From Paracoccus sp. UBA889 (lineage in GTDB: Bacteria; Pseudomonadota; Alphaproteobacteria; Rhodobacterales; Rhodobacteraceae), in contig DBFD01000018.1 of assembly GCA_002294185.1 (NCBI GenBank), forward strand, positions 1 to 46,269: a stretch of DNA of 46,269 nt, read 5' to 3'. Shown here piece by piece: positions 27,311 through 43,476 of the stretch; position 1 is the stretch's first letter; each line of letters starts with the position of its first letter. A program made the position numbers and the translations under genes. A model generated the notes under the pieces. The model made no database searches and was not told where the DNA came from. It saw only the letters and a program-made list of their open reading frames with translations.

Positions 27311-27398
27311 ATCGGGGCGAAAGGCATGGTCACGGGTGCCGGACATCCTTGCGTCGCAGGGCTGCCTGTGCCAACGCGAGAAGCGTGATCGGGTCGCC

Positions 27399-27986
27399 AT
27401 GCTGAAAAAACTTCTCATCGTCGTCGTTGAATCGGATCCCGACCGGGCGCAGGCGATCGCGGACGGGCTGGGCGACGTCGGCGATCACGATATCCGCATC
27501 CTGGCCGAGCATTCGGCGCTGGCCCGGCGCGTGGCCGAACTGAGCCCGGACGTGGTCCTGATCGACATCGCCAATCCGTCGCGCGACATGCTCGAGGAAC
27601 TTGCGCTGGCCTCTGGTCCGGCCGAACGGCCGGTGGCGATGTTCGTGGATCGTTCGGACGAACAATTGACGCGATCGGCCATCGAGGCGGGGATGTCGGC
27701 CTATGTGGTGGACGGGCTGCGCCCGGACCGCCTGAAGCCGATCATCGACGCCGCCGTCGCGCGCTTTCATATCCTGCGGCAATTGCGGGCCGAACTGGCC
27801 GCCACCCGTGCCGCGCTGGAAGACCGCAAGATCGTGGATCGTGCCAAGGCCGTGCTGATGAAGGCGCGCGGCATCGACGAGGCCGAGGCCTATGCGCTGC
27901 TGCGCAAGACGGCGATGGATCAGGGCAAGCGCATCGGCGAAATCGCGCAGCAACTGGTGACGGCGGCGGGATTGCTGGGGCGATGA
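27399..27986 (+). CDS. nasT: ANTAR-domain antiterminator, NasT type
   Basis: A 195-aa cytoplasmic response-regulator-like protein. A receiver domain (about 4-125, with D56 in VVLIDI) is followed by an ANTAR RNA-binding domain (about 138-190: DRAKAVLMKARGIDEAEAYALL). In known NasST systems NasT binds hairpins in the leader of the nitrate-assimilation message and prevents early termination; NasS holds it inactive until nitrate binds. The upstream frame from 27336 has no support, so ATG 27399 is chosen. Its stop overlaps the nasS start (ATGA), giving the expected one-to-one pair. Confidence 0.92.
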   Translation: MLKKLLIVVVESDPDRAQAIADGLGDVGDHDIRILAEHSALARRVAELSPDVVLIDIANPSRDMLEELALASGPAERPVAMFVDRSDEQLTRSAIEAGMSAYVVDGLRPDRLKPIIDAAVARFHILRQLRAELAATRAALEDRKIVDRAKAVLMKARGIDEAEAYALLRKTAMDQGKRIGEIAQQLVTAAGLLGR

Positions 27987-29164: not shown

Positions 29165-29462
29165 CCACTTTTCAGGCAATCACCGCATCCGCCGCAAAAA
29201 CTTGATGCGCCGCGCGGTTTTCCCCGGTGGCATCGGTCGCGATCGCGGTGTTCCGCTTGCCCTGCCGCCGGACAAGCGTGAAGATGCAGGACATGGCCAG
29301 GACGCAATGGCGCGCCACAGGCCCGTTCGCAACGTTGCGCACGATTTCCGCGAGGACGCGGTTCCCCTGACAGCCTGATTGCGCGTTCCGCCGCGGACCT
29401 CCCTCTGGGAGCCACGATGGATGTCTGCGCGATCCGTCCCACGCCAGCCATCGGAGCATCTC
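29165..29462 (+). promoter_or_regulatory. nas leader: candidate NasT target region
   Basis: This 298-bp gap holds no gene but several dyads. CGCTTG (29254-29259) pairs with CAAGCG (29273-29278). TGGCGCGCCA is at 29308-29317, and the 12-bp palindrome CGCAACGTTGCG is at 29328-29339. A CCGCG-AGGA-CGCGG hairpin lies at 29348-29361, and CTCCC-TCT-GGGAG at 29399-29411. The CGCG strand of the fourth can instead pair with CGCGT at 29382-29386, so two exclusive folds exist. A leader with competing hairpins is what NasT-type antitermination uses. I do not see a clear pair of ANTAR hexaloops or a terminator with a T-run, so the exact element is unproven. A weak sigma-54-like GG/GC pair lies at 29309-29322. 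Confidence 0.5.
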
Positions 29463-30674
29463 ATGTCCCATCCTTCGCAGCAGGATTCACGCCGCGCGCT
29501 GAGCCTGTCCACCCTTGCCTTCACCATCTGTTTCGCCGTCTGGACGATCTTCTCGATCATCGGCATCCAGATCAGCCAGCAGCTTGGCCTGTCCGAGACG
29601 CAGTTCGGCCTGCTGGTGGGGCTGCCGATCCTGACCGGCTCGCTGAGCCGGATCGTTCTGGGCGTTGCCACCGACCGACTGGGCGGGCGTCTGGTCTATA
29701 CGCTGAACATGCTGAGCGCCGCACTGGCGACGCTGCTGCTGTCATGGGCCACGACCTATCCGCAAATGCTGCTGGCCGCGCTTGGCGTGGGTCTTGCGGG
29801 CGGGTCCTTCGCGGTCGGCGTGGCCTATGTGTCCCGCTTCTATCGCGATGCGCAGCAGGGCACCGCGCTTGGCATTTTCGGCGTCGGCAATGTCGGCGCG
29901 GCGGTGACCAAATTCGTCGCGCCCTTCGTGATGGTTGCCGTCGGCTGGCAGGCCACGGCGCAAATCTGGGCCCTCGCGCTGGCCGTGACGGCCGTGCTGT
30001 TCTGGATCCTCAGCAAGGATGATCCGGTCACCGCCGCCCGGCGCGGCAGCGCGGCATCCCGGCGCAGCCTGCGCGCCGAATTCGCGCCGCTGAGGAACCT
30101 CCAGGTCTGGCGCTTCTCGGCCTATTACTTCTTCGCCTTCGGCGCGTTCGTCGCGCTGGCGCTGTGGCTGCCGCATTACCTGATCGGTGTCTATGGCTTC
30201 GACGTGAAGGTGGCGGGCATGGTCGGGGCGGCCTATTCGATCCCGGCCTCCATCTTCCGCGCCTATGGCGGCGTGCTGTCCGACCGGATCGGGGCGCGCC
30301 GGGTGCTGTATGCCACCTTCGCGGTGTCGCTGGCGGCGACCGCGATCCTGTCGATCCCGGCGGGGGTCACCCTGCCGGTGTTCCTGGTGGTGATCTTCAT
30401 TCTGGGCTTCGTGATGAGCCTGGGGAAAGCCGCCGTCTACAAGCATATCCCAAGCTATTATCCGCACAATGTCGGCGCCGTCGGCGGCCTGGTCGGCATG
30501 ATCGGCGGATTGGGCGGCTTCGCGCTGCCGCTGCTGTTCGGCTGGCTGAAGGATCAGACCGGGCTGTGGTCCAGCTGTTTCATGGTTCTGTTCGTGCTGG
30601 TCGCCGCCTGTGCGCTGTGGATGCACGCCTCGGTCCGTCGCATGGGCCGTCCCGCCGCCATGCAAGCCGCCTGA
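29463..30674 (+). CDS. nasA: Nitrate/nitrite MFS transporter, NarK/NasA type
   Basis: A 403-aa major-facilitator transporter with about 12 transmembrane helices. The nitrate/nitrite-porter signature GVGNVGAAVTK is at about 140-150 and the related GGLVGMIGGLGGF late in the protein. A short N-terminus leads straight into helix 1. CGGAG lies eight bases before the ATG at 29463; the ATG at 29379 would put 28 atypical residues in front. It brings nitrate into the cytoplasm for the reductases encoded next. Named after the Paracoccus scheme, where nasA is the transporter. Confidence 0.92.
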   Translation: MSHPSQQDSRRALSLSTLAFTICFAVWTIFSIIGIQISQQLGLSETQFGLLVGLPILTGSLSRIVLGVATDRLGGRLVYTLNMLSAALATLLLSWATTYPQMLLAALGVGLAGGSFAVGVAYVSRFYRDAQQGTALGIFGVGNVGAAVTKFVAPFVMVAVGWQATAQIWALALAVTAVLFWILSKDDPVTAARRGSAASRRSLRAEFAPLRNLQVWRFSAYYFFAFGAFVALALWLPHYLIGVYGFDVKVAGMVGAAYSIPASIFRAYGGVLSDRIGARRVLYATFAVSLAATAILSIPAGVTLPVFLVVIFILGFVMSLGKAAVYKHIPSYYPHNVGAVGGLVGMIGGLGGFALPLLFGWLKDQTGLWSSCFMVLFVLVAACALWMHASVRRMGRPAAMQAA

Positions 30675-30688
30675 AAGGATCTGTCGCC

Positions 30689-33127
30689 ATGAAGAAGAAA
30701 CTGGTCGTTATCGGCGCCGGCATGGCCTCGGGCCGTTTGCTGGAACATCTGTTTGAAACCGCCCCGGACGCCTGGCAGGTGACGCTGTTCAACGGCGAGC
30801 CGCGCGGCAACTACAACCGGTTGATGCTGTCGCCGGTCCTGTCGGGCGAAAAGACCTATGACGACATCGTCACCCACGATGCTGACTGGTATGCGGCCCA
30901 TGGCGTCGATTGCCGCTTTGGCCAGCCGGTGGTGCGGATCGACCGCGCCGCGCGCGTGGTCCATTCGAACCAAAGCAGCGCCGAATATGACGCGCTGGTG
31001 ATCGCCACGGGCTCGGCCCCCTTCATCATCCCGGTGGCGGGCAAGGATCTGCCCGGCGTCGTGACCTATCGCGATCTGGAAGACACCGATGCGATGATCG
31101 AGGCGGGCAGGGCCGGCCGGGATGCGGTCGTGATCGGCGGCGGCCTGCTGGGCCTGGAAGCCGCTGCCGGCATGGCTGCGCGCGGGGCGAAGGTCACCGT
31201 CATTCACCTGATGGGCCACCTGATGGAACGCCAGCTTGATCCTGCGGCGGGCTATCTGCTGCAACGGGATCTGGAACGGCGTGGCATTGCCGTCCACTGC
31301 AAGGGGGCCACTAAGGCGATCCTGGGTCACGACCGGGCCGAGGCGGTGCTGCTGGAAGACGGCACCGTCTATCCCGCCGATCTGGTCTGCATGGCCGTGG
31401 GCATCCGCCCCGAGACCCGCATCGCCGTGGACGCACGGCTGGAGGTCGAGCGCGGCATCACCGTCGATGACGGCCTGCGCACCAGCGATCCGAACATCTT
31501 CGCACTTGGCGAATGCGTGGAACATCGCGGCCAGCTGTTCGGCCTTGTCGCGCCGCTTTACGATCAGGCTCGGGCGCTGGCCCGGACCCTGTCCGGCGAG
31601 ACGGCCGAATTCCGCCCGGTCCAGACCGCGACCAAACTGAAGGTGACCGGCTGCGATCTGTTCAGCGCGGGCGATTTCGCCGAGGCGCAGGGCCGCGAGG
31701 ATATCGTGTTCCGCGATCCGGGGCGTGGCATCTACAAGCGGCTGGTCCTGCAGGACAACCGCGTCATCGGCGTGGTCATGTATGGCGACACGGCTGACGG
31801 CAACTGGTTCTACGGGCTGATCAAGGACGGCACCGATATCGAGCAGATGCGCGACACGCTGATCTTCGGTCCCGGCTTCCAGGGAGGGTCCAGGCCGGAC
31901 CCTATGGCGGCCGTTGCAGCCTTGCCGCCTGAGGCGGAAATCTGTGGCTGCAACGGCGTCTGCAAGGGCAGCATCGTCAATGCCGTGCAAGGGGGCGCGA
32001 CCACGCTGGACGCGGTTCGCGCCGGCACCAAGGCCAGCGGATCCTGTGGCACCTGCACCAGCCTCGTGGAGCAGGTGATGCGTCTGACGCTGGGCGATGG
32101 CTTTGCCGCCGCCGCGCCCGGCGGAATGTGCAAATGCACCGATCACAGTCACGAGGATGTGCGCCGGCTGATCCGGTCGATGGGTCTGAAATCCATCCCC
32201 GCCGTCATGCAGGAACTTGGCTGGAAGTCCGTCGGCGGCTGCCGTTCCTGCCGTCCGGCGCTGAATTTCTATCTGCTGGCCGAATGGCCGCTGGAATACC
32301 GGGACGACCGGCAATCGCGCTTCGTGAACGAACGCAACCACGCCAATATCCAGAAGGACGGCACCTATTCGGTGGTGCCACGCATGTGGGGCGGCGTCAC
32401 CACGCCGGACGAATTGCGGGCCATCGCGGATGCGGCCGACAAGTATGGCGTGCCGATGGTCAAGGTCACCGGCGGCCAGCGGATCGACCTGCTGGGCGTG
32501 CGCAAGGAGGATTTGCCGCTGATGTGGGCCGATCTGAACCGGGCCGGGCTGGTCTCGGGCCACGCCTATTCCAAGGGGCTACGGACGGTGAAGACTTGCG
32601 TGGGCAGCGAATTCTGCCGCTTTGGCACACAGGATTCGACCGGGCTGGGGATCCGGCTGGAAAAGCTGCTATGGGGGTCCTGGACACCGCACAAGGTCAA
32701 GCTGGGGGTTTCGGGCTGCCCCCGCAACTGCGCCGAGGCGACCTGCAAGGATGTGGGCATCGTCTGCGTGGACAGCGGCTACAACATCAGCGTCGCCGGC
32801 GCCGCCGGCATGGAGGTGAAGCAGACCGAGCATCTGGCCGCGACCCCCTCCGAGGACGAGGCGGTCGAGATCGTCACCGCCTTCATCCAGCTCTATCGCG
32901 AACACGCCCGTTATCTCGACCGGCCCTACAAGTGGGTCGCCAAGGTCGGCCTGGACTGGGTCATCGCGCAGGTCGTGGATGATCCCCGAAACCGCCGCGC
33001 GCTGGTCAAGCGGTTCGAGACCAGCCAGTCGGTCTATCGCCGCGATCCCTGGGCCGAACATTCGACGCCTTCGGAAACGCCCCGCTGGGCCCCGCTTGCC
33101 GATCTGACCCTGGAGGCCGCCGAATGA
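30689..33127 (+). CDS. nirB: Assimilatory nitrite reductase, large subunit
   Basis: An 812-aa sirohaem enzyme that reduces nitrite to ammonium with NAD(P)H. In order: an FAD/NAD(P)H-binding domain (VVIGAGMASG; VIGGGLLGLEAA), a BFD-type [2Fe-2S] domain (C419 and C421, then C453 and C456), and the nitrite/sulphite reductase half with C637 and C643 (CVGSEFC) and C677 and C681 (CPRNC) for the coupled 4Fe-4S/sirohaem. AAAGGA precedes the ATG. It lies 14 bp after the transporter gene and overlaps nirD by ATGA. Equivalent to nasB in Paracoccus naming. Slightly shorter than E. coli NirB but apparently complete. Confidence 0.95.
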   Translation: MKKKLVVIGAGMASGRLLEHLFETAPDAWQVTLFNGEPRGNYNRLMLSPVLSGEKTYDDIVTHDADWYAAHGVDCRFGQPVVRIDRAARVVHSNQSSAEYDALVIATGSAPFIIPVAGKDLPGVVTYRDLEDTDAMIEAGRAGRDAVVIGGGLLGLEAAAGMAARGAKVTVIHLMGHLMERQLDPAAGYLLQRDLERRGIAVHCKGATKAILGHDRAEAVLLEDGTVYPADLVCMAVGIRPETRIAVDARLEVERGITVDDGLRTSDPNIFALGECVEHRGQLFGLVAPLYDQARALARTLSGETAEFRPVQTATKLKVTGCDLFSAGDFAEAQGREDIVFRDPGRGIYKRLVLQDNRVIGVVMYGDTADGNWFYGLIKDGTDIEQMRDTLIFGPGFQGGSRPDPMAAVAALPPEAEICGCNGVCKGSIVNAVQGGATTLDAVRAGTKASGSCGTCTSLVEQVMRLTLGDGFAAAAPGGMCKCTDHSHEDVRRLIRSMGLKSIPAVMQELGWKSVGGCRSCRPALNFYLLAEWPLEYRDDRQSRFVNERNHANIQKDGTYSVVPRMWGGVTTPDELRAIADAADKYGVPMVKVTGGQRIDLLGVRKEDLPLMWADLNRAGLVSGHAYSKGLRTVKTCVGSEFCRFGTQDSTGLGIRLEKLLWGSWTPHKVKLGVSGCPRNCAEATCKDVGIVCVDSGYNISVAGAAGMEVKQTEHLAATPSEDEAVEIVTAFIQLYREHARYLDRPYKWVAKVGLDWVIAQVVDDPRNRRALVKRFETSQSVYRRDPWAEHSTPSETPRWAPLADLTLEAAE

Positions 33128-33459
33128 CGCGCTATGTCGATATCGCATCGCTGGAAGACATCCCCGCCCAGGGCGCACGGCTGATCCGCACCACCGATGG
33201 CTGCGTCGCGCTGTTCCGCACCGCCGACAACCGCGTCTTCGCGCTGGATGACCGCTGCCCGCACAAGGGCGGCCCGCTGTCCGAAGGCATCGTGCATGGC
33301 CATCAGGTCACCTGCCCGCTGCATGACTGGGTGTTCGACCTGACCACCGGGGCGGCCCGGGGCGCCGATCAGGGGGCGGTCCGCACCTGGCCGGTCCGGG
33401 TGGAACGCGGTCGCATCCTGATTTCCGCCGAAAGCCTCATGCGCGGCAAGGCCGCCTGA
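33124..33459 (+). CDS. nirD: Nitrite reductase small subunit, Rieske-type
   Basis: A 111-aa Rieske [2Fe-2S] protein with ligands C45 and H47 (CPHKGG) and C64 and H67 (CPLHDW). Many enteric NirD proteins lack these ligands; here all four are present, matching the NasG ferredoxin of Paracoccus, which is thought to pass electrons between reductase subunits including nitrate reductase. It is translationally coupled to nirB and lies 11 bp before the next small gene. Cytoplasmic. Confidence 0.93.
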   Translation: MTRYVDIASLEDIPAQGARLIRTTDGCVALFRTADNRVFALDDRCPHKGGPLSEGIVHGHQVTCPLHDWVFDLTTGAARGADQGAVRTWPVRVERGRILISAESLMRGKAA

Positions 33460-33470
33460 AAGGAAAGCCC

Positions 33471-33626
33471 ATGATCACGCCTTCCATTGGCGAAATCACG
33501 CGCGGCGACGCCACCGCGATGATCGCTGCGACCCGCCACCGCGGGTTGTCCGGCCTGTCGCGCGGCCCGATTGCGACCGTCCGGCGCACAGCCGTCCTGG
33601 CGCCACAAGGACAGATCGCGCCATGA
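33471..33626 (+). CDS. 51-aa protein of unknown function in the nas operon
   Basis: A short gene between nirD and the nitrate reductase. It has AAAGGA with good spacing before its ATG, GC-rich third codon positions like its neighbours, and a stop overlapping the next gene's ATG (ATGA). The product (starting MITPSIGEITRGDATAMIA) is basic, without membrane helix, signal peptide or metal motif. I do not recognise it. In Paracoccus this slot holds nasH, usually described as a second transporter, so it may be a replacement, a remnant or a short independent protein. The coupling suggests at least that it is translated. Confidence 0.6.
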   Translation: MITPSIGEITRGDATAMIAATRHRGLSGLSRGPIATVRRTAVLAPQGQIAP

Positions 33627-36271
33627 ACATGCATTCCCCGGCGGGCGCGGTTCGCACGACCTGTCCCTATTGCGGCGTCGGCTGCGGCGTGCTGGCGACA
33701 CCGACACCGGAAGGCGGCCTGACCGTCGCCGGCGACCCCGATCATCCGGCGAATTTCGGAAGGCTTTGCGTCAAGGGTGCCGCCCTGGCCGAAACCGTGG
33801 GTTTGCGGGGCCGGCTTCTGGCCCCGCAAATCGACGGGCGCCCGGCCGGCTGGGACGCGGCGCTGGACCTGGTGGCGCGGCGTTTTGCCCGGACCGTCGC
33901 CCGGCACGGTCCGGATTCGGTCGCCTTCTACGTCTCGGGGCAGCTGCTGACCGAGGATTACTATGTCGCCAACAAGCTGATGAAGGGCTTTATCGGCAGC
34001 GCCAATATCGATACCAATTCACGGCTTTGCATGGCCTCGTCGGTCGCGGGGCATCGGCGCGCCTTCGGCAGCGATACGGTGCCGGGGCTCTATGCGGATC
34101 TGGATCAGGCCGATTGCGTCGTCCTTGTGGGTTCGAACCTCGCCTGGTGCCATCCGGTTCTGTTCCAGCGACTGGCGGCCGCGCGCGAGAAACGCGGCAC
34201 CAGAATCGTCGTGATCGATCCGCGCCGCACCGCCACCTGCGAGATCGCCGATCTTCACCTGCCCATCGCGGCCGGGGCGGATGCCGCCCTGTTCAACAGG
34301 CTGCTGGCCGAGATCGACAGGCGCGGACTGATCGCGCCCGATCCGGCCCTGGACGGGCTGGACCAGGCCCTTCTGGCCGCAAACCGGACCGATGCCGCCG
34401 TGACCGGGCTGGCGACCGCGGATCTGGCCCGTTTCGTGAACCTGTGGTGCGACAGCGAAAAGGTCGTGACGCTGTTTTCGCAAGGGATCAATCAATCCGA
34501 CAGCGGCACCGACAAGGTCAACGCGATCCTGAATTGCCATCTCGCGACGGGGCGGATCGGACGACCGGGCATGGGACCGTTTTCCGTCACGGGTCAGCCG
34601 AACGCCATGGGCGGGCGCGAGGTCGGCGGGCTGGCCAACATGCTGACCTGCCACCTGGAGATCGAAAACGCCGCCCACCGCGACGCCGTGCGGCGATTCT
34701 GGAATGCGCCGCGCATGGCCGAAAGGCCGGGACTGAAGGCCGTGGACATGTTCCGCGCGGTCGAGGAGGGACGGATCAAGGCGCTGTGGATCATGTGCAC
34801 CAACCCGGCGGTCTCGATGCCCGACGCCGACCGGGTCGCCCGCGCCATCGCCGGCTGTGACTTTACCGTGGTTTCCGACATCATGGCGCGAACCGACACG
34901 ACGCGGCTGGCCGATGTCCTGCTGCCGGCGACCGGATGGGGCGAAAAGAATGGCACCGTCACCAATTCCGAACGCCGCATCAGCCGCCAGCGGCCCAGCC
35001 TCGCGCCCGTGGGGCAGGCGCGCGACGACTGGCGCATCATTGCCGATGTCGCCCGGCGCATGGGATGGGGCGACGCCTTCGGCTGGTCCCACCCGTCAGA
35101 AATCTTCGCCGAATATGCGGCGCTTTCGGGGATCGCCGGCGGTCTTGGCAGCGATTTCGACATTTCCGATTGCGCGGGGATCGGCAGGGCCGCCTATGAC
35201 GGGATGACGCCGTTTCTCTGGCCGCGTGCTGGTGCGCGGCAAGGAGGCCGCTTTTTCGGTGACGGCCGCTATCATACCTTCTCGGGTCGCGGATGCATGG
35301 TGGCCGTCGCGCCGCGCCCGCCGCAGCCGGTCACGGGCGAATTTCCCTTCCGCCTCAATACCGGCCGTGTGCGCGATCACTGGCACAGCATGACCCGGAC
35401 CGGACTTTCACCCAGCCTCTCGCGTCATCTGGCCGAGCCATTCCTGGAAATCCATCCTCGCGACGCCGCCGCGCTTGGCTTGTCACCCGCAAGTCTGGCG
35501 CGGGTCAGCGGAGCGCAGGGAGATGCGCTGCTGCGCGTCCTGGTCACCGACCGCGTCGCTGCCGGGCAACCCTTTGTCCCGATGCATTGGAGCGCCGAGA
35601 CAGCGGCTTCGGGGCGCATCAACAGCGCCATACCCGCGCTGGTGGACGCTGTTTCGGGCCAGCCGGCGCTGAAATCGTCGCCCGCAGCCATTCGGCCCTT
35701 TGGCGCGGTCTGGTATGGCTTTGCGATATCCCAGGCCCCGATCAGGCCCGATTGCGAATATTGGGCGGTCTCGGCCCTGGCTGGCGGCTATCAGGCGGAA
35801 CTGGCCGGGCTGCACGAACCCGATGACTGGACCGCCTTTGCAAAGCACCTGTTCTCTTTGACATCAGATCCGCTTGCCGTGCATGACCGGCGGCGCGGCC
35901 TTGCACGATTGGCCTTTGCCGGAAACGGCCGCGTGCAGGCGGCGCTTTTCGTCTCTGGCGAGCCGGTTGCCCTGTCGCGCCATCATGTCGCTGCGGCGCT
36001 TGGCTGTGACATGGACGCGAACCTGTTGGCCGGCCGTCCGGGTGTCCACCAGCCGGACGAGGGCGCGATCGTCTGCGCCTGCGCCACCGTCGGCATGAAC
36101 AGCCTGGTACGCGCGATCACGACGCAAGGACTGGTGACGCTGGATGCGGTCGGCAAGGCGCTTGGCGCCGGCGCCAATTGCGGTTCCTGCCGCCCCGAGA
36201 TCAGCAACCTGCTGACAAGGCTCGGCGATCCCGATCTGCCAAAGCCCGGAAACGGGTTCGATGCCGATTGA
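33623..36271 (+). CDS. nasC: Assimilatory nitrate reductase, molybdopterin catalytic subunit
   Basis: An 882-aa molybdenum enzyme reducing nitrate to nitrite in the cytoplasm. The N-terminal 4Fe-4S ligands are C14, C17, C21 and C49. Large molybdopterin-binding domains follow (DTNSRLCMASS supplies the Mo-ligand cysteine region; ATGWGEKNGTVTNSERR; and the C-terminal TGRVRDHWHSMT). A BFD-type [2Fe-2S] module ends the protein with C818, C820, C853 and C856. No Tat signal, so not a periplasmic Nap enzyme. Length matches NasA/NasC proteins. Electrons probably come from NirB through the Rieske protein, as proposed for Paracoccus. It ends the operon. Confidence 0.94.
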   Translation: MNMHSPAGAVRTTCPYCGVGCGVLATPTPEGGLTVAGDPDHPANFGRLCVKGAALAETVGLRGRLLAPQIDGRPAGWDAALDLVARRFARTVARHGPDSVAFYVSGQLLTEDYYVANKLMKGFIGSANIDTNSRLCMASSVAGHRRAFGSDTVPGLYADLDQADCVVLVGSNLAWCHPVLFQRLAAAREKRGTRIVVIDPRRTATCEIADLHLPIAAGADAALFNRLLAEIDRRGLIAPDPALDGLDQALLAANRTDAAVTGLATADLARFVNLWCDSEKVVTLFSQGINQSDSGTDKVNAILNCHLATGRIGRPGMGPFSVTGQPNAMGGREVGGLANMLTCHLEIENAAHRDAVRRFWNAPRMAERPGLKAVDMFRAVEEGRIKALWIMCTNPAVSMPDADRVARAIAGCDFTVVSDIMARTDTTRLADVLLPATGWGEKNGTVTNSERRISRQRPSLAPVGQARDDWRIIADVARRMGWGDAFGWSHPSEIFAEYAALSGIAGGLGSDFDISDCAGIGRAAYDGMTPFLWPRAGARQGGRFFGDGRYHTFSGRGCMVAVAPRPPQPVTGEFPFRLNTGRVRDHWHSMTRTGLSPSLSRHLAEPFLEIHPRDAAALGLSPASLARVSGAQGDALLRVLVTDRVAAGQPFVPMHWSAETAASGRINSAIPALVDAVSGQPALKSSPAAIRPFGAVWYGFAISQAPIRPDCEYWAVSALAGGYQAELAGLHEPDDWTAFAKHLFSLTSDPLAVHDRRRGLARLAFAGNGRVQAALFVSGEPVALSRHHVAAALGCDMDANLLAGRPGVHQPDEGAIVCACATVGMNSLVRAITTQGLVTLDAVGKALGAGANCGSCRPEISNLLTRLGDPDLPKPGNGFDAD

Positions 36272-36350: not shown

Positions 36351-37253
36351 ATGACCATTCGCAACCTGAGAACCTTGATCGCCTTTGCCGATCACGGCAC
36401 CTTTTCGGCTGCGGCGGAAGCCGTCTTCATTACCCATGCCGCCGTCAGCCAGCAGATGAAATCGCTGGAACAGGAATGGAATGTCGTTCTGTTCGACCGT
36501 TCCCGCCGGACACCCGTGCTGACATCGGTCGGCAAGGCGCTTGTCGCAAAGGCGCGCGAGATCGTCGCCGCCTATGACGGCATGGTCCTGTCCGTGTCGG
36601 GCGAAGCGGCGTTCAGCGGCGAACTGATCCTGGGCGCCGTGCCGACGACGCTGACCGGCCTGGTTCCGTTCGTCATTTCCATGCTGAAATCCGAACATGC
36701 CGGGCTGCTGGTTCGCGTCGTGCCGGGCCAGACCACGGAACTGGCCTTGCAGGTCGAACGCGGCGCGCTGGACGCGGCGATCCTGACCCGTCTGCCGGCG
36801 GTTCCGCGACGGCACGAGTGGCAGGAAATCGCCCAAGAGAACATGGTGCTGCTCGCCTCCAGGCAATCTGTCAGCGACGACCCGATCGAGCTGCTTCGGA
36901 GCCATGCCTTCATCCGGTTTTCGCGCGAAGCCGTGGTCGGCACGATGATCGAAAACTGGCTGCAGTCGCAAGGCATCGAAGTCAAGGAAAGCATGGAACT
37001 GGCCAATCTCGATATCATTGCCAGCATGGTCTATGCAAATCTGGGGGTTTCGATCGTTCCGGTGCAGGCGGTCCCGCCTCCGATCAGCCTGCCCTTGAAG
37101 CGCCTTGCCCTTTCCCCGGCCATGCCCCGCCGGGTTCTGGGGCTCTTGTCGCGGTCGGACAATGTGAAGGGGCAGGTGCTGGAGCAGCTTTTGCAGAAGC
37201 TGCGCGAAGCGGTCGAAATCGGCCGGTTCACGCCGCCCGGAACCGCGGTCTAG
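36351..37253 (+). CDS. LysR-family transcriptional regulator
   Basis: A 300-aa regulator with an intact N-terminal HTH (IRNLRTLIAFADHGTFSAAA; THAAVSQQMKSLEQEW) and effector domain. It reads in the same direction as the nas operon, 79 bp after it, but its own AT-rich promoter region suggests separate expression. It meets the dicarboxylate cluster tail to tail; the two stop codons share one CTAG. It could regulate that cluster or nitrogen genes. The arrangement does not decide, since it is not divergent from either. Confidence 0.9.
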   Translation: MTIRNLRTLIAFADHGTFSAAAEAVFITHAAVSQQMKSLEQEWNVVLFDRSRRTPVLTSVGKALVAKAREIVAAYDGMVLSVSGEAAFSGELILGAVPTTLTGLVPFVISMLKSEHAGLLVRVVPGQTTELALQVERGALDAAILTRLPAVPRRHEWQEIAQENMVLLASRQSVSDDPIELLRSHAFIRFSREAVVGTMIENWLQSQGIEVKESMELANLDIIASMVYANLGVSIVPVQAVPPPISLPLKRLALSPAMPRRVLGLLSRSDNVKGQVLEQLLQKLREAVEIGRFTPPGTAV

Positions 37254-37987
37254 ACCATGTCCCGAAGCGGAATCGCGATCCCGGCCACGAACATCATCAC
37301 GATCAGCAGGCGCCGGAACTGGTCATCGCTCAGGTGCTTGAATGTCCACAGGCCCATCTGCGCGGCGATCAGCGTTACCGGCAAAGCGATGGCCATCACC
37401 TTCAGGGACGCCGCGTCGTAGACGCCATCCATTGCCATCAGCGTTGCCGAAATTCCCAGGACGACGACGTTGTAGGGCTGCAAGACGGCACGGCTCTGTT
37501 CCTTGGTCCAGTCTCGCATCGAGATCCACATCGTCGGCAGGGCGCCCGACAAACCCGATACCGCGCCAAGAAAGCCGCCGACCAGCCCGATTCCGCTGTC
37601 GATGATCGGGGTCGGGCGACGCAGGCTGGGCAGGTCGCGCCGCAGCGTGAAGAAGCCACCATAGAGGATCATGAATCCGGCGACGATGAACTTCAGAAAA
37701 TCGGCGTCGATGCGATGCAGAAGGCGCAATCCGATCGGAATACCGATCAGCGCGGGTATCAGGAACCGGGACAGCTGCCGCCATTCGATCGCGCGACGCA
37801 CAAGGATTGCCCCCTGCACCCCGCTGACGACCGACATGACCAGAACCACCGACACGGCCTGGGTTGGTGGCATCACCTGCAGCCACCAGCCAAGCGTGAA
37901 AAGCGCGGTTCCGAAGCCGGCCAGCCCGTTCACGAACCCGCCCGAAAACGCTCCGGCCACCAGGACCAGAAGATATTCGCCGTTCAC
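37250..37987 (-). CDS. TauE/SafE-family anion exporter
   Basis: A 245-aa membrane protein with about eight helices and the family's glycine-rich repeats (FSGGFVNGLAGFGTALF and VGGFLGAVSGLSGALP). Relatives export sulphite, sulphoacetate or other small organic anions. The GTG at 37987 overlaps the NIPSNAP gene stop (GTGA) and is preferred; the frame open to 38077 lies inside that gene. It is the last gene of the SDH/fumarase-like operon. Its own stop shares CTAG with the convergent LysR gene, leaving no room for a terminator between them. Confidence 0.87.
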   Translation of the reverse strand: MNGEYLLVLVAGAFSGGFVNGLAGFGTALFTLGWWLQVMPPTQAVSVVLVMSVVSGVQGAILVRRAIEWRQLSRFLIPALIGIPIGLRLLHRIDADFLKFIVAGFMILYGGFFTLRRDLPSLRRPTPIIDSGIGLVGGFLGAVSGLSGALPTMWISMRDWTKEQSRAVLQPYNVVVLGISATLMAMDGVYDAASLKVMAIALPVTLIAAQMGLWTFKHLSDDQFRRLLIVMMFVAGIAIPLRDMV

Positions 37988-38301
37988 GCAGGAACCTTGA
38001 AGAACGGAGCGGGCACGAGCAGCTTGTTCTCGACCTTCGCGACCAGGGGACGCATCTGTTTGGCATAGGACTGCCATTCCGGCGACGCCTGCAACTGCTT
38101 GCGCCGCTGGAAACGGTCGTCAAGCGATTCATAGCCCCACATATGCACGATCTGGTTCAATGGTCCGAAATCGGTGTAGTAGTAGCCGACCATCCTGCCC
38201 AGGATGCGAACCTGAACCTCCATTCCCTGTTCTTCGTAAAGTTTCAGAAAGACCGGTACGTTTCCTGCGTTCAGCGTGTAGATGCGTTCATCGACAAACA
38301 T
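37984..38301 (-). CDS. NIPSNAP-family protein
   Basis: A 105-aa protein of the NIPSNAP family, an alpha/beta-barrel fold related to small dimeric enzymes. Typical features are FVDERIYTLNAGNVPVFLKL at the start and IVHMWGYESLDDRFQRR in the middle. The ATG at 38301 has GAGGAA upstream; the frame open to 38490 is not supported. Bacterial NIPSNAP genes often stand in catabolic operons, with no agreed function. Here it is coupled to the exporter gene by GTGA. Confidence 0.88.
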   Translation of the reverse strand: MFVDERIYTLNAGNVPVFLKLYEEQGMEVQVRILGRMVGYYYTDFGPLNQIVHMWGYESLDDRFQRRKQLQASPEWQSYAKQMRPLVAKVENKLLVPAPFFKVPA

Positions 38302-38540
38302 CGTTTCCTCATGCATTCGGAAGGGAAAGAATGATCCAGAGCGGCCGGCATGCCTGTCGGCGCGGCCCAGAGCCGCGATGGCGGACCTGCCACCAACGGC
38401 AAGCCTTCGGCGACATCCGCAGGCCGGCACGAAGATTGCTGACACCTGACACCAGCGCGACAATGCCAGCGCGGGCCGGGCGATCGCCATGGTCTTCGGC
38501 CCCGGGCAGGATCAGACTGCCGGACAGACCGCTGACTTCC
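38302..38540. other. 239-bp gap without a gene
   Basis: Between the hydratase beta-subunit gene and NIPSNAP I see no credible reading frame on either strand. It contains GC-rich short dyads (GGCATGCC and others) but no clear promoter or terminator. An internal promoter for the NIPSNAP/exporter pair is possible. Confidence 0.4.
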
Positions 38541-39209
38541 TCAGCCGATGACTTCGTCCGTTCTGTCATCGGTTTCCCCATACCGCTTGAGGACGGCGGG
38601 GCGCGTCCCTTCATAGACCTTGGCAAGACCGCCTGCGATCTTCGCGTTCTCGCGTTCGAACAGGCAATTGCCCTCGATGTCGGATGCGACGATGAAAGGT
38701 CCCATGTTTTCCGCCTCGATCACCCACATCGCCTGGGCCAGGCCCAGTTCCTTGCGCCAGTGCAGGCCTTTGACATTCTTGATTCCGCGCCCCAGCAGGG
38801 CGCCGGTGCCATAGCCGACGGTGGTCAGATAGATGGCGCCGTTGGGAACGAATTTGGTCCGATAGTCTTCCGGGCTCATGCCGCCCTTGCCGATGATGAT
38901 GCGCGCGCCCGAGATGCGGAACCAGTCCGCGATCCACCTGGAAAAACGGAAACTGGCTGTCGCGGTCACGGCACCCATGTCGAAGCTGCCATCGTCGCGT
39001 TGCGCCGCGGCTGGCGCACAGTGGAAATTGGCCGCGCTTTCGGCCGGCAGGTCCATCGGGATGGGGACACCTTCCTCGATCGCGCGCTTGTAGACACCTT
39101 CCCGGCCGGTATAGATCACGCCGTCCAGATGCACGATGTCCCCCAGCTTCAATGCTGCAAGGTCTTCGGGCGACGGTGTCGTCGAAAGGCGAATGATCTT
39201 GTGGGTCAT
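38541..39209 (-). CDS. Class I fumarase/L-tartrate dehydratase-like beta subunit
   Basis: A 222-aa subunit homologous to the C-terminal domain of class I iron-sulphur fumarases and the beta subunit of tartrate dehydratase. Key segments are LKLGDIVHLDGVIYTGREG at the start and ARIIIGKGGM in the middle. With the alpha subunit it would add or remove water across a C4-dicarboxylate. GGAGAAA lies eight bases before the ATG at 39209. A 102-bp gap with a small hairpin (TGCGG-CCTT-CCGCA at 39265-39278) separates it from the alpha gene, unusual for paired subunits. Fumarate, tartrate, mesaconate or a substituted analogue cannot be told apart from sequence. Confidence 0.9.
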   Translation of the reverse strand: MTHKIIRLSTTPSPEDLAALKLGDIVHLDGVIYTGREGVYKRAIEEGVPIPMDLPAESAANFHCAPAAAQRDDGSFDMGAVTATASFRFSRWIADWFRISGARIIIGKGGMSPEDYRTKFVPNGAIYLTTVGYGTGALLGRGIKNVKGLHWRKELGLAQAMWVIEAENMGPFIVASDIEGNCLFERENAKIAGGLAKVYEGTRPAVLKRYGETDDRTDEVIG

Positions 39210-39311
39210 GACATTTTCTCCTTCAAGCGCGGGGCTTGGAGCCATCTTTTCGCAGCCGGATCCTTGCGGCCTTCCGCATCGGGCCGCGTCAGGTTGCGCG
39301 GGGGCCGGATG

Positions 39312-40280
39312 CTACTGTGCCGCGGTCGCGGTCGCGGGCCATTCGACCGTCTCGCGGCGCTGAAACGGGGTGAACCATTGCGGATCGGTGCGGTGTTCGA
39401 CCCGCCCGTCGGCATGGACCCGCGCGCAGGCCCGCCGGGATGACAGGCAGAAGGCGTGAACACTCATCTGCATCCCGCCGGTGTGGCAATAGCCAACCTC
39501 GATATGGCAATCGACGACCATCGACTTGCCGACGAAACCCATGGCGCCCATGCCGATCGAGTTGCCGAGTTCCTTGAACTCCATCTCCAGCTCGGCGATC
39601 CTGGGGTCGGGGTTGCGGTCGCCGACGGTGCGCAGGCAGGCGGCGCGCTTGCCCAGCACCATGCAGGTATCCTTCGAGCCGCCCAGCCCGATACCGATGA
39701 TCGCCGGCTGGCAGGCCAGACCGCGTTTGCCGAAGGCGACAAGACTGTCCAGATAGAACCGCTTGATCCCCTCGATCCCGTCGGATGGAAACAGCATCCG
39801 GTAATCGGTGCCGAACAGGCCGCCCTTGTGCACGGTCGTCAGGTCGATCCAGTCGCCCTGGCCGGGGGCTGACGGCTCGAAACCGTATTCGATCTCGGGC
39901 GCGTTGATACCGACATTGTTGTCGTGATCGGTACGCCACAGCGGATGGACCCGGTTGGGGCGCAGCGGAACGCCGTTCGTCGCGGTCGCCGTCGCCCGAC
40001 GCAGGGCTTCTTCCAATGCGACGGGACCGCCCTCGATCTGCGCCTCGTTGCCCATCTTGACATACCAGCGCGGGCACCCCGTATCACCGCACATCGCGCG
40101 ACGATCCTCCTTTGCGGCTTTGTAGTTCTCCAGCATGGCTTGAAGAACGAAGGACGACAGATCGCCGTCCTCGACACTGGCCGTGGCTTCAAGCCCATCG
40201 AGATAGTCTTGCGGGATCTCGATGGCCGCCTTGTCCATCAGCACTTCGGCGGTGGATTCGATGAGGTCTATGGAAATCAT
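39312..40280 (-). CDS. Class I fumarase/L-tartrate dehydratase-like alpha subunit
   Basis: A 322-aa subunit that carries the 4Fe-4S cluster. Likely ligands are C64 (CGDTG), C190 (GLACQPAIIGIGLGG) and C278, by comparison with class I fumarases; C69, C206, C265 and C284 are extra cysteines. The GYCHTGGM segment is typical. One-chain FumA enzymes join this domain to the beta domain; here they are separate genes, as in tartrate dehydratases and many non-enteric fumarases. It starts 12 bp after the flavoprotein stop, so it belongs to the SDH-like operon. Such enzymes are oxygen sensitive. Confidence 0.9.
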   Translation of the reverse strand: MISIDLIESTAEVLMDKAAIEIPQDYLDGLEATASVEDGDLSSFVLQAMLENYKAAKEDRRAMCGDTGCPRWYVKMGNEAQIEGGPVALEEALRRATATATNGVPLRPNRVHPLWRTDHDNNVGINAPEIEYGFEPSAPGQGDWIDLTTVHKGGLFGTDYRMLFPSDGIEGIKRFYLDSLVAFGKRGLACQPAIIGIGLGGSKDTCMVLGKRAACLRTVGDRNPDPRIAELEMEFKELGNSIGMGAMGFVGKSMVVDCHIEVGYCHTGGMQMSVHAFCLSSRRACARVHADGRVEHRTDPQWFTPFQRRETVEWPATATAAQ

Positions 40281-40292
40281 GGATCGTCTCCT

Positions 40293-42059
40293 TTACCGGG
40301 CCGCCTGCACCAGCGTCTCGGGCTCGCCCTCGGGCAGCACGGTTTCGCCCGGCCGAACGATTGTGAACCGGACCGGGTCGCGCGATACGCGCAGCCCCTC
40401 GGCGGTTTTCCGCGCCACCGTGAAATACGAGGTTTCCAGATCTCCCTGATCGGGAAAATCCTCGCGGAAATGCGCGCCTCGCGAATTCTCGCGCGCCAGG
40501 GCAGCCTCGGCGATGACTTCGGACACGTCGACCAGCGATGCCAGGTTGAGCCAGTCGTGCCAGGTCAGGTTGAACGCCAGGTTGGACGGATCGACGCCGA
40601 TATCCTGCAGGTCGGTGGCGACCGTCGCGATCTTTTTCAGGCCGCTGATCAATCCCTGTTCGGTCCGCATGACGCCGACATCGTCCCACATCGCGTCCTG
40701 CAATACGCGGCGCAGGTTCTGGACATTGCCGACAGGCTTGCCAAACGGGCGTCGCGCGCGCTCGATCTCGGCCGACAGGATATTCTCATCCGGATCGCGC
40801 AGTGCCGTCATGGCGCGAATGTCGCGGCCCATCACGTCACCCGCGATACCGCCATAGACGGTCGAATTGGCGACGCCATTTCCGCCCAGCCTGTTCGATC
40901 CATGCGCCCCGCCCGCATCCTCGCCGGCGACATACAGCCCTTCCATGGCCGTGCGGGTATCGACATCGACAACGACGCCGCCCATGAAATAATGCGCGGT
41001 CGGCACCACCTCCACCTTGCCGCCGGCAAGATCGAAGCCCGAATCGGCGCAGCGCTGGACCATGCCCTTGAACTTCTTCGCAACGATGTCGGGGCCAAGA
41101 TGCGCCATCGAGATGAACACCCCGCCATTGGGCGATGAATTGTTCTTGCGCATCTCCGAATAGATGCCGCGGCTGACCACGTCGCGGGTCGAGCGTTCGC
41201 CGCGGGTGTCATAATCGTACATGAACCGGTGATCGTTGCCGTTCAGCAGATGCCCGCCCGCGCCGCGCAACCCTTCTTCCAGAACGGTGCCGGTCATCTT
41301 GGTATGGTCGCCGGCCAGCAGCCCGGTCGGATGGAACTGAACCATCTCCATGTCGCGCAGCGGCAGCCCCGCGCGCAGCGCCATTGCAAGCCCGTCCATC
41401 GTCTTGTCGCCCGAGGGCGTGTGGTATTTGTACATGGTGGGGCCGCCACCCGTTGCCATCAGCACCGTCCTGGCGCGGACAAAGCGGAACTTTCCGCTGC
41501 GCATGTCGATGAACAGGACCCCGGCGAGGGCCGAGCCATCCTTGGTCGGGATCAGTCCGACGGCGCGATGCTCCTGAAGCTTTTCGATCGGGCGGGCCAG
41601 AACCTGTTCCATCAGCCGGTTGATGATCTCGATCCCGGTCAGATCGCCCTTGTGCACCGTGCGATCGGCCGTCTGTCCCGCGAACGCCTTGTGATGCAGC
41701 GAGCCGTCCGCAACCCGGTCGAAGAAGCAGCCGATTTCGTTTTCCAGTTCGCGGACACGCACGACCGCCTGTTCGCACAGCCGCCAGGCCATGTCCTGAT
41801 CCGGCAGCCACTTGCCGCCGACGATCGTGTCCATGAAATGCCGCTCGACGGTGTCTCCATGTCCCAGGGCCACATTGTAGCCGCCCTGAACCATGCGGGT
41901 GCAGCCGCATTTGCCGATCAGCCCCTTGACCGCGATGGTGATCTTGGTCCCCGGCGGCGCCGATTGCTGGGCATGCAGCGCGCCGAAAAGCCCTGCTCCG
42001 CCGGTGCCAAGGATCAGGATGTCGGTGTCGTGACGATCGATATCGCTTTTCAGGGGCAT
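40293..42059 (-). CDS. SDH/fumarate-reductase-like flavoprotein subunit
   Basis: A 588-aa flavoprotein of the SdhA/FrdA/aspartate-oxidase family. FAD motif LGTGGAG is near residue 17. Substrate-site motifs are FHPTGL, GERSTRDVVSRG, HYFMGG and HGSNRLGGNG. The loop that normally reads SHT, with the histidine bearing covalent FAD, here reads GCT (Cys53), so FAD is probably bound non-covalently. In known members loss of this link lowers the flavin potential and disfavours succinate oxidation. ATG 42059 is chosen; GTG 42065 overlapping the previous stop is an alternative. Subunit genes are arranged B, anchor, anchor, A. A second main SDH is expected elsewhere in the genome, so this is probably a paralogue with a special substrate. 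Confidence 0.9.
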   Translation of the reverse strand: MPLKSDIDRHDTDILILGTGGAGLFGALHAQQSAPPGTKITIAVKGLIGKCGCTRMVQGGYNVALGHGDTVERHFMDTIVGGKWLPDQDMAWRLCEQAVVRVRELENEIGCFFDRVADGSLHHKAFAGQTADRTVHKGDLTGIEIINRLMEQVLARPIEKLQEHRAVGLIPTKDGSALAGVLFIDMRSGKFRFVRARTVLMATGGGPTMYKYHTPSGDKTMDGLAMALRAGLPLRDMEMVQFHPTGLLAGDHTKMTGTVLEEGLRGAGGHLLNGNDHRFMYDYDTRGERSTRDVVSRGIYSEMRKNNSSPNGGVFISMAHLGPDIVAKKFKGMVQRCADSGFDLAGGKVEVVPTAHYFMGGVVVDVDTRTAMEGLYVAGEDAGGAHGSNRLGGNGVANSTVYGGIAGDVMGRDIRAMTALRDPDENILSAEIERARRPFGKPVGNVQNLRRVLQDAMWDDVGVMRTEQGLISGLKKIATVATDLQDIGVDPSNLAFNLTWHDWLNLASLVDVSEVIAEAALARENSRGAHFREDFPDQGDLETSYFTVARKTAEGLRVSRDPVRFTIVRPGETVLPEGEPETLVQAAR

Positions 42060-42061
42060 GA

Positions 42062-42403
42062 TCACACCGCTTGCAGGAAAAAGGTTCCGGAGACGAGAAC
42101 CGAGAGGCCCACCGCCCCCGCCGCCAGCGTCTTCTGGCGAGAGGTCCATGGCATCAGTTCAAGCGCGAGAAGGCGCAACCCTCCGAAGAAATGGACGGCC
42201 AGCAGGAAGACCAGCCCGAATTCCGCGAATTTTACCAGCGGCATGTCCGTCCATGCCAGGAATCCGTCCAGCCGCGCGGCTTCGTTCAGGGCCATGGACA
42301 GAACCCAGAAATGCGCCGGCAGGAACAGGGCCAGCAAGGCCCCCGAGACGCGATGAAGAATGAAGGCATACCAGAGCGGATGGGTGCGGTGCGGGCGGAT
42401 CAT
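42062..42403 (-). CDS. SDH-like cytochrome b / membrane anchor (SdhC-like)
   Basis: A 113-aa protein with three transmembrane helices. HRVSG at about 17-21 and the HFFGGLRLL segment are typical of SdhC quinone-site and haem-ligand regions. It anchors the flavoprotein/iron-sulphur dimer and links it to quinone. The ATG at 42403 overlaps the other anchor's stop by ATGA; the frame open to 42517 is a shadow. The next gene, the flavoprotein, follows within a few bases. Confidence 0.85.
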   Translation of the reverse strand: MIRPHRTHPLWYAFILHRVSGALLALFLPAHFWVLSMALNEAARLDGFLAWTDMPLVKFAEFGLVFLLAVHFFGGLRLLALELMPWTSRQKTLAAGAVGLSVLVSGTFFLQAV

Positions 42404-42744
42404 GCGACACCCCCGGGGGCGGTAACGGCCCAGACGGCGCGCACGCCCATCCAGACCAGAACCAGAAAGGCAATCCAGGTCAGCACGGAAAGGGCGCGCG
42501 CCCCAAGACCCAGCCATTCATGTGCGATGACGCGCAGGCCGATCGCCGCGTGGACAGACACGGCAATGACAAAAGTCCCGTAAAACGTCGCCCAGGCAAA
42601 GCTGCCCTGCGTTCGTCCCAGGATCTCGGCTGCGCTTAGCCCGCCCTGAATCGCATAGATCATCACCGCGAGGTGCCCGATGACCAGAGGCGCCATGACC
42701 AGCGCCGACAATCGCTGCAGCAGGTAAAGCCGGATGTCCAGCAT
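42400..42744 (-). CDS. SDH-like second membrane anchor (SdhD-like)
   Basis: A 114-aa protein with three helices. LLQRLSALVMAPLVIGHL at the start and SVHAAIGLRVIAHEW in the middle give histidines suited to haem b. It pairs with the SdhC-like anchor. It starts 3 bp after the iron-sulphur gene's stop. Both anchors are short and diverged, but the HxxxG-type pattern and position leave little doubt about the role. Confidence 0.83.
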   Translation of the reverse strand: MLDIRLYLLQRLSALVMAPLVIGHLAVMIYAIQGGLSAAEILGRTQGSFAWATFYGTFVIAVSVHAAIGLRVIAHEWLGLGARALSVLTWIAFLVLVWMGVRAVWAVTAPGGVA

Positions 42745-42747
42745 CGG

Positions 42748-43476
42748 TCAGGTCCTCCGCCTGAAGAACGCGGCGGCGGTCGCCCGCTTCAGCCCGGCGA
42801 TCGCGTCCATCGGATTCAGTCCGTTGGGGCAGAAATGCGCGCAACTTCCCATCGAGTGACAGTTGTGGCAGCCACCGGCGCCGCTGACCGCATCAAGGAT
42901 TTTGCGCGAACCCGCATCCCTGGAATCGTTGTAGAGCGTCCAGGCACGATTCAGCGCCGCGGGACCGAGGAAATCGGGATTCCCGGCCACGGTATCGCAT
43001 GACGCATAGCAGACCGAGCAGTTGATGCATTCGATCCCGGCATCGGCCTTTACCCGCTGAACGCTCGCCGGGTCGATCTCCTCGATCTGGTCGTTGCGGG
43101 TCTTCGACGGGTGGAACACGCCTTCCGCCTTGACCCATTTCTCGAAAAACGGGTCCATGTCGGCCGCGAGATCCTTGATGACCGGCAGATTGCGCAGCGG
43201 CCCGATCTCGATGCAATTGTCCTTCAGCACCTTCTTGACATGCGTGCGACAGGTCCAGCGCGGCTGGCCGTTCACCATCATCGCGCAGGATCCGCACATT
43301 CCGACGCGACATGCAAAACGGTATGACAGCGTGGGATCGTCGTTCTGCTGGATCCACGCCACGACATCCAGCACGGTCTGGCTGTCTTGCGCGGGAACGT
43401 CAAAGATCTGGAATTCGCCACCTTCATGGTCGCCGCGCCAAACGGAAACCTTCATACGGGTATCGGTCGAAGACAC
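42748..43476 (-). CDS. SDH/fumarate-reductase-like iron-sulphur subunit
   Basis: A 242-aa subunit with all three cluster sites: [2Fe-2S] C56, C61, C64 and C76; then C150, C153, C156 and C160; then C203, C206, C212 and C216 (CPNGLNP). The fourth cysteine of the second group is followed by Asp instead of the usual Pro, and the third group has an extra cysteine. The GTG at 43476 is the likely start because AAGGAT lies eight bases upstream; the ATG at 43455 has no ribosome site. It is first of the operon, so the main promoter should lie just upstream. Confidence 0.9.
   Translation of the reverse strand: MSSTDTRMKVSVWRGDHEGGEFQIFDVPAQDSQTVLDVVAWIQQNDDPTLSYRFACRVGMCGSCAMMVNGQPRWTCRTHVKKVLKDNCIEIGPLRNLPVIKDLAADMDPFFEKWVKAEGVFHPSKTRNDQIEEIDPASVQRVKADAGIECINCSVCYASCDTVAGNPDFLGPAALNRAWTLYNDSRDAGSRKILDAVSGAGGCHNCHSMGSCAHFCPNGLNPMDAIAGLKRATAAAFFRRRT

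Follow-up and report, generated by a model that had tools for sequence, protein, structure and literature searches.

Which substrate is served by an operon of Paracoccus sp. UBA889 that joins a complete succinate dehydrogenase (SDH)-like complex to a two-subunit hydratase resembling class I fumarase? The operon lies at positions 37250-43476 of contig DBFD01000018.1, the whole of which (46,269 nt) was analysed and is called the window below. Eight minus-strand open reading frames (ORFs) are present there, each above the Pfam gathering cut-off for its expected family: from 43476 downward, sdhB, an SdhD-like and an SdhC-like gene, sdhA, hydA, hydB, a NIPSNAP gene and tauE (Fer2_3/Fer4, twice Sdh_cyt, FAD_binding_2 with Succ_DH_flav_C, Fumerase, Fumerase_C, NIPSNAP and TauE, respectively). 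Both ORF positions and Pfam matches agree with the genes and families that an earlier note on this DNA had read from the letters. Because sulfite-handling genes neighbour the cluster in its relatives, it probably handles some organosulfonate, and the reading preferred here, with a probability of roughly 0.4, is that SdhABCD and HydAB convert 3-sulfopropionate via sulfoacrylate to sulfolactate.

The cluster does not supply the housekeeping enzymes. The window genome (3.24 Mb, 97% complete) has a second SdhA on contig 73, 33% identical to that of the cluster, and, on contig 50, a class II FumC that passes its cut-off; the cluster hydA is its sole match to PF05681. Housekeeping SdhA and FumC being located elsewhere, the cluster is therefore a dedicated module separate from the main tricarboxylic acid (TCA) cycle enzymes, as the earlier note had supposed; the contrary outcome that it had named, a genome with no second SDH or fumarase, did not occur.

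The flavin, iron-sulfur and membrane subunits of SDH type are all encoded in this one operon. They correspond to an SdhB-like iron-sulfur subunit (42748..43476, GTG start at 43476; TIGR00384 191.6 bits, cut-off 88) with 13 Cys arranged as for the three SDH clusters, an SdhD-like membrane anchor (42400..42744; PF01127 29.6 bits, over the cut-off; TIGR02968 24.3 bits, under the cut-off of 41.8), an SdhC-like cytochrome b556 subunit (42062..42403; TIGR02970 57.3 bits, cut-off 52.3) and an SdhA-like flavoprotein (40293..42059; PF00890 and PF02910) that stays under the SdhA/FrdA cut-offs of NCBIfam (TIGR01812, 404.9 of 567.3 bits; TIGR01816, 327 of 727.35 bits). These four genes are 3 bp apart or overlapping. 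In an alignment of 83 family members (the window and 82 relatives) with E. coli SdhA, FrdA and NadB and with the genome's own housekeeping SdhA, the His that binds FAD covalently (E. coli SdhA H45; residue 53 of the window protein) is Cys in 83/83, the position of E. coli T254 is Glu in 83/83, and a loop inserted just before the latter is found in all 83, window residue 254 within it being Lys in 34 and Arg in 49. H242, E255, R286, H354 and R399 (E. coli SdhA numbers), which together with T254 we take to be the substrate residues, are invariant (83/83). Variants of E. coli FrdA that lack the flavin His still reduce fumarate but no longer oxidise succinate; therefore, in the cluster enzyme, either the flavin would be held otherwise or the natural substrate would be more easily oxidised. 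A cysteinyl flavin link at the conserved Cys is conceivable, and a non-covalent flavin is possible. L-aspartate oxidase-like chemistry was considered as well and rejected, since the position of the NadB Glu that aligns with SdhA F119, presumably a functional residue of aspartate oxidase, is Phe in 83/83. The complex thus resembles complex II (E. coli SdhCDAB, FrdABCD) in its four subunits, iron-sulfur Cys, membrane anchors, catalytic Arg and substrate His/Arg, but departs from it in the low identity and scores of SdhA, the Cys for the flavin His, the Glu for Thr254 and the Lys/Arg loop.

The hydratase consists of an alpha subunit, HydA (39312..40280, 12 bp from sdhA; PF05681; TIGR00722 204.2 bits, cut-off 100.65), and a beta subunit, HydB (38541..39209, 102 bp further on; PF05683; TIGR00723 105.9 bits, below the cut-off of 145.15), which were compared across 89 and 87 members, respectively, with catalytic and cluster roles that we assume from the Leishmania fumarase structure. 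In HydA the cluster Cys C64 and C190 occur in 89/89 and C278 in 88/89, D66 is present in 89/89, and the CQDTG of E. coli FumA/TtdA is replaced by CGDTG (83/89) or CADTG (6/89). In HydB, TATASFRF replaces GPTTxxRM in 87/87, and T84 and R88 of that motif are kept in all of them, as is K108, the Lys of GKGG. Both subunits, the cluster Cys and the catalytic Thr, Arg and Lys are shared with two-subunit class I fumarase, L-tartrate dehydratase and mesaconase; the Gly/Ala for Gln, the TATASFRF motif and an operon shared with an SDH-like complex set it apart. Judged from these alignments, HydAB belongs to the class I fumarase/tartrate dehydratase superfamily, motif-distinct from fumarase or tartrate dehydratase proper, and SdhA and HydAB each form a distinct subfamily, in which both catalytic machineries are retained and both substrate sites are altered in a fixed manner; by the same criterion the substitutions are fixed changes in working enzymes and not decay. 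The alteration of one carboxylate site is in keeping with a substrate that has another group in place of one carboxylate, and a sulfonate is able to replace a carboxylate.

The distribution of the cluster was followed through HydA homologues, at E<=1e-40 in the order and at E<=1e-50 in wider samples, these samples overlapping. Homologues are found in 47/292 genomes of the order, 83-88% identical (the window itself excepted), including three among the 21 genomes listed for the genus, and in 24/385 genomes of the class, 10/398 of the phylum and 6/369 of the class of a distant carrier. The cluster also occurs in 12 plasmid records (four of Paracoccus, two each of Sulfitobacter and Cupriavidus, and one each of Pseudorhizobium, bacterium NT-25, Methylobacterium and Pseudomonas), 11 of which were examined (all except H5; H2, H10 and H11 carry no annotation). 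Because it is patchy, strongly conserved and often plasmid-borne, the data suggest that the cluster is a mobile catabolic module. Gene content was recorded for the 80 best among 511 named relatives, many of whose contigs are truncated (loci are designated L and genomes G below), and in a class-wide sample of 20 regions from the 24 positive genomes, the other four being G557 (= L127), the window genome G000, G1256 and G1181. HydA is found in 80/80 named loci, HydB in 78, SdhA in 74 and SdhB, C and D in 73 each, as opposed to accessories such as TauE (45/80), LysR (42), TctA (36), a thiamine diphosphate (ThDP) enzyme (19), a mandelate-racemase-like enzyme (16), CoA-transferase III (13), nitroreductase (13), NIPSNAP (8), YeiH (8) and sulfite oxidase (5). 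The conserved core is sdhBCDA-hydAB, and NIPSNAP and TauE are optional; the conservation that the earlier note had proposed to look for in all eight genes thus holds for six of them and fails for the full set.

The neighbours that point to sulfur were assessed in the window's order by setting the 20-kb cluster regions of 20 carriers against 40 further stretches of equal length from the same contigs. TauE was matched in 17/20 cluster regions vs 0/40, YeiH in 2/20 vs 0/40 and sulfite oxidase in 2/20 vs 0/40, so that any of the three occurs in 18/20 vs 0/40, with reference proteins drawn from this cluster's own neighbours, which favours finding orthologues there, with carriers (20 of 47) chosen from the head of the list, where contigs were long, and with control places picked by hand. 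What the comparison shows is that these particular orthologues are tied to the cluster. LysR (18/20 vs 1/40), TctA (13/20 vs 0/40), the ThDP enzyme (8/20 vs 0/40) and the racemase-like enzyme (5/20 vs 0/40) behaved in the same way. Among the named loci, 47/80 have TauE, YeiH or sulfite oxidase and 12/80 have YeiH or sulfite oxidase. One of the latter two lies directly 3' of hydB in 11/80, YeiH in seven (L059, L064, L066, L084, L106, L117 and L124) and a sulfite-oxidase gene in four (L072, L082, L098 and L113); L091 has both upstream on the opposite strand. At least one of the three is also found in 8/11 plasmid loci. At E<=1e-3 the window itself yielded no remnant of a YeiH or sulfite-oxidase gene. 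The earlier proposal of a module for a C4-dicarboxylate or analogue therefore stands as regards a dedicated analogue module and is narrowed, through these sulfite-handling neighbours, to an organosulfonate as predicted substrate.

Annotated plasmid copies give further context. In Methylobacterium nodulans, soxC and a cytochrome c gene lie upstream of the core, which is accompanied by an amidohydrolase, a dicarboxylate symporter, YeiH, SorA (695.9 bits, over the cut-off of 600) with cytochrome c, and TauE. The Pseudomonas MPC6 copy has a Tct transporter, TauE, the core, methylmalonate-semialdehyde dehydrogenase (MMSDH), NIPSNAP and YeiH, with sulfite oxidase and cytochrome c farther on. In Pseudorhizobium NT-26 the core is found with YeiH, NIPSNAP, LysR, TauE, a tripartite ATP-independent periplasmic (TRAP) transporter, a sulfolactaldehyde-reductase-like enzyme (324.3 bits, below the cut-off of 348) and succinate-semialdehyde dehydrogenase (SSADH; 690.7 bits, cut-off 646.35). 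Plasmid pTAV3 of Paracoccus versutus carries the core, YeiH, NIPSNAP, TauE, LysR, a sulfolactate-dehydrogenase-like gene (203.9 bits vs a cut-off of 500), a 2-hydroxyacid dehydrogenase and a Tct transporter, followed by a HisD-like gene with a short-chain dehydrogenase/reductase and an alcohol dehydrogenase, which we take to be HpsN-type, and by two UxaA-family genes and a putative sulfate exporter, presumably SuyAB-SuyZ, and then sulfite oxidase. Other copies are poorer in such genes: no sulfite gene lies within the region viewed in Sulfitobacter S190, a distant YeiH ca. 7 kb away is the sole sulfite-type gene by the P. seriniphilus copy, and none of the reference sulfite genes was matched in the two Cupriavidus copies, both of which share with L125 a TauE-family gene of another kind (Pfam-tested in L125 only). 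Known sulfonate clusters (sulfolactate, dihydroxypropanesulfonate, taurine/isethionate) likewise have sulfite exporters, sulfite dehydrogenases and tripartite or TRAP transporters, and in pTAV3 such genes are adjacent to the core; here, however, the core enzymes are of complex II and class I fumarase origin, and no known desulfonating enzyme is among them.

At the genome level, Xsc scores above its cut-off in 44/47 carriers vs 14/33 non-carriers (Fisher p 5e-7, uncorrected for relatedness), the latter being 33 of 245 in list order, including 10 of the 18 listed same-genus genomes; within the genus the figures are 3/3 vs 1/10. In the window genome, Xsc lies on contig 32 (L179, G000:C32:1-15905), with a GMC oxidoreductase and a YeiH gene close by, in a cluster that we take to resemble isethionate or taurine degradation. 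TRAP-like and phosphotransacetylase-like ORFs can be read in the same region.

In the preferred reading, the substrate would be 3-sulfopropionate, i.e. succinate with a sulfonate for one carboxylate, arising for example from homotaurine. The SdhABCD-like membrane complex would desaturate it to 3-sulfoacrylate, the fumarate analogue, with electrons passing to quinone, and the iron-sulfur hydratase HydAB would hydrate the latter beside the carboxylate to give 3-sulfolactate, which would join known desulfonation either via sulfopyruvate and sulfoacetaldehyde to Xsc or via SuyAB. Sulfite would then be exported or oxidised via TauE, YeiH or sulfite dehydrogenase, with LysR as regulator and NIPSNAP as accessory. 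The data show the gene families, their conservation, the fixed active-site substitutions and the association with sulfite-handling genes; substrate, reaction order, hydration site and TauE cargo are what we infer. The sulfonate islands of pTAV3, where the core stands beside sulfolactate-type dehydrogenases and UxaA-family genes, and of NT-26, with SSADH and the sulfolactaldehyde-reductase-like gene, were counted in favour of this route. PMC11489063 cites the thesis of J. Mayer for 3-sulfopropionate to sulfoacrylate to sulfolactate in Roseovarius nubinhibens, steps that suit an SDH-like plus fumarase-like pair, and Roseovarius is the label of no fewer than 15 of the 80 named loci. The two enzymes of the cluster match the two 3-sulfopropionate steps for which no named enzyme was found in the literature consulted. 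PMC11489063 (2024) also shows the formation of 3-sulfopropionate, derives it and 3-hydroxypropanesulfonate from anaerobic breakdown of sulfoquinovose and dihydroxypropanesulfonate, and states bacterial degradation of both to be unreported; PMC5320631 describes gamma-aminobutyrate (GABA) enzymes as able to convert homotaurine to 3-sulfopropanoate, and PMC12890257 calls the degradation mechanism in Bilophila unclear. No gene-level report of a sulfosuccinate, sulfofumarate, sulfoacrylate or 3-sulfopropionate route was found in the open-licence library searched, which lacks most subscription journals and theses.

Several observations weigh against this route. TauE is a broad family that need not signify sulfite, and PMC11489063 names a TauE as a probable exporter of 3-sulfopropionate itself; TauE, YeiH or sulfite oxidase occurs in only 3/20 class-wide and 1/8 distant loci, and the YeiH of L064 (128.8 of 232.6 bits) and SorA of L082 (179.6 of 600 bits) are below their NCBIfam cut-offs. 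In the matched control, SSADH (0/20 vs 5/40), ComC (0/20 vs 1/40) and 3-sulfinopropanoyl-CoA desulfinase (2/20 vs 1/40) were not enriched. The Xsc difference is confounded by relatedness, and the gene that we presumptively call SuyB-like, whose only NCBIfam match is a sub-cut-off one to galactarate dehydratase, shows no association with the cluster (carriers 4/47, non-carriers 2/33). In the window genome no SuyB-like gene is matched, the ThDP enzyme and SlcC have no close homologue (31% and 37%, respectively) and the ComC-family matches stay below the cut-off; sulfolactate use there is therefore not assured. Glu is an unusual residue at SdhA position 254 if an anion is to bind there, HydAB pairs occur in some loci without Sdh genes in the available flank (L051, L053 and L055 in the named set; L190, L191 and L196 in the class sample), and MMSDH beside some copies better suits direct desulfonation, considered below.

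Other explanations differ in how they account for the altered sites and for the neighbours. That the cluster is a spare or conditional set of ordinary succinate dehydrogenase and fumarase agrees with family membership and retained catalytic residues, but is scarcely credible given substrate- and flavin-site changes invariant in 83/83 SdhA and 87/87 HydB, a patchy and partly plasmid-borne distribution and housekeeping enzymes encoded elsewhere. A sulfur-free succinate analogue (methylsuccinate, mesaconate, or a hydroxylated or ether-linked succinate), with TauE carrying an organic anion, would explain why most class-wide and distant loci have no sulfite genes and would take advantage of the breadth of the TauE family, and the family III CoA-transferase genes of 13/80 named loci (best NCBIfam matches oxalate, glutarate and mesaconate CoA-transferases, all sub-cut-off) suit branched-acid routes; this reading is nonetheless improbable in view of the 18/20 vs 0/40 of the matched control and of the sulfite dehydrogenase operons in several copies. 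The hydration of mesaconate, a 2-substituted fumarate, by class I fumarases, as given in PMC4682846, speaks for such an analogue and also for sulfosuccinate or another substituted sulfonate, which SdhABCD would convert to sulfofumarate and HydAB, by hydration at the sulfonate carbon, to oxaloacetate and sulfite. Sulfosuccinate requires no additional enzymes and accounts for the sulfite genes, the tripartite transporter and, as a chiral substrate, the racemase-like neighbour (16/80 named loci). It would, however, leave the C3-sulfonate dehydrogenases, MMSDH and ThDP enzyme beside some copies unneeded, and since it keeps both carboxylates, Thr254 to Glu at one carboxylate site would be unexpected; no paper on such genes was found in the open-licence library searched, and the reading is unlikely, if a little less so than a sulfur-free substrate.

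With 3-sulfopropionate retained as substrate, HydAB might instead hydrate the sulfonate-bearing carbon, giving a bisulfite adduct that would fall apart into malonate semialdehyde and sulfite, MMSDH (MmsA) then leading to acetyl-CoA. The MPC6 MMSDH (695.3 bits, cut-off 448.5) abuts hydB, MMSDH homologues are present in 4/119 loci examined (L126, L170, L171 and L175), the operon has sulfite genes but no known desulfonating lyase, and three carriers (G176, G212 and G236) have neither an Xsc nor a SuyB-like match, the G236 copy (L211) retaining YeiH after hydB. Yet MMSDH occurs in none of the 80 named or 20 class-wide loci, and iron-sulfur hydratases normally place the hydroxyl next to the iron-binding carboxylate, which favours sulfolactate, as does the thesis route cited in PMC11489063; this variant is accordingly the least likely of the sulfonate readings. 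More generally, that HydAB itself breaks the C-S bond, water being added at the sulfonate-bearing carbon of whichever substrate and the hydroxysulfonate collapsing to a carbonyl compound and sulfite, is doubtful, and to our knowledge no iron-sulfur hydratase is known to desulfonate in this way. The unsaturated sulfonate would in that case come from an SDH-like complex without a histidyl flavin site, possibly with a cysteinyl-linked flavin.

Several neighbours of the core deserve mention in their own right. A ThDP enzyme of the acetolactate synthase/hydroxyacyl-CoA lyase type recurs near the cluster (L112:16498-18099, L134:8110-9723, L126:12821-14422 and others); it is under every NCBIfam cut-off and is possibly a sulfopyruvate decarboxylase. 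An enolase-superfamily enzyme near PDB 3ddm (330 bits) adjoins the cluster at L085:12749-13888 and in 15 other named loci, and is possibly a sulfolactate racemase or lyase. Together with the 2-hydroxyacid dehydrogenase neighbours, these enzymes could act on sulfolactate and sulfopyruvate. A 3-sulfinopropanoyl-CoA desulfinase is found at L172:21745-22917 (635.3 bits, cut-off 600), with homologues near the L079, L089, L092, L105 and L106 copies (six copies in all), and an Amidohydro_2 family gene adjoins hydB in five distant copies (L169:12794-13633, L125, L126, L170 and L175).

In the window, the operon ends with the two optional genes, a NIPSNAP family protein (37984..38301, minus strand, 239 bp after hydB; PF07978 81.1 bits; best PDB match 5kak_A) and, overlapping it by 4 bp, a TauE/SafE family exporter with a GTG start (37250..37987, minus strand; PF01925 113.6 bits). 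NIPSNAP genes also stand right beside YeiH or sulfite-oxidase genes in L059, L066, L106, L113, L117, L124, L168, L176 and L177, hinting at a link to sulfite or sulfonate handling. Convergent with tauE, a LysR-type regulator (36351..37253, plus strand; PF00126/PF03466), orthologues of which adjoin the clusters of many relatives, likely regulates the sdh-hyd operon. Past LysR, a molybdopterin enzyme at 33623-36271 is best matched by formate dehydrogenase and nitrate reductase models, both below cut-off. With the antiterminator-like regulator, transporter, nitrite reductase-like and molybdopterin nitrate reductase-like ORFs read at 27336-36271, this stretch looks like a nitrate/nitrite assimilation region, apparently without relation to the sdh-hyd cluster.

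These data indicate that a label of succinate dehydrogenase or fumarate hydratase within such a cluster is no ground for placing a gene among the TCA enzymes. If the 3-sulfopropionate route is true, complex II and class I fumarase would have been recruited jointly for a sulfonate, and a widespread, partly plasmid-borne 3-sulfopropionate module would provide a missing piece of the organic sulfur cycle, together with a marker gene for it.

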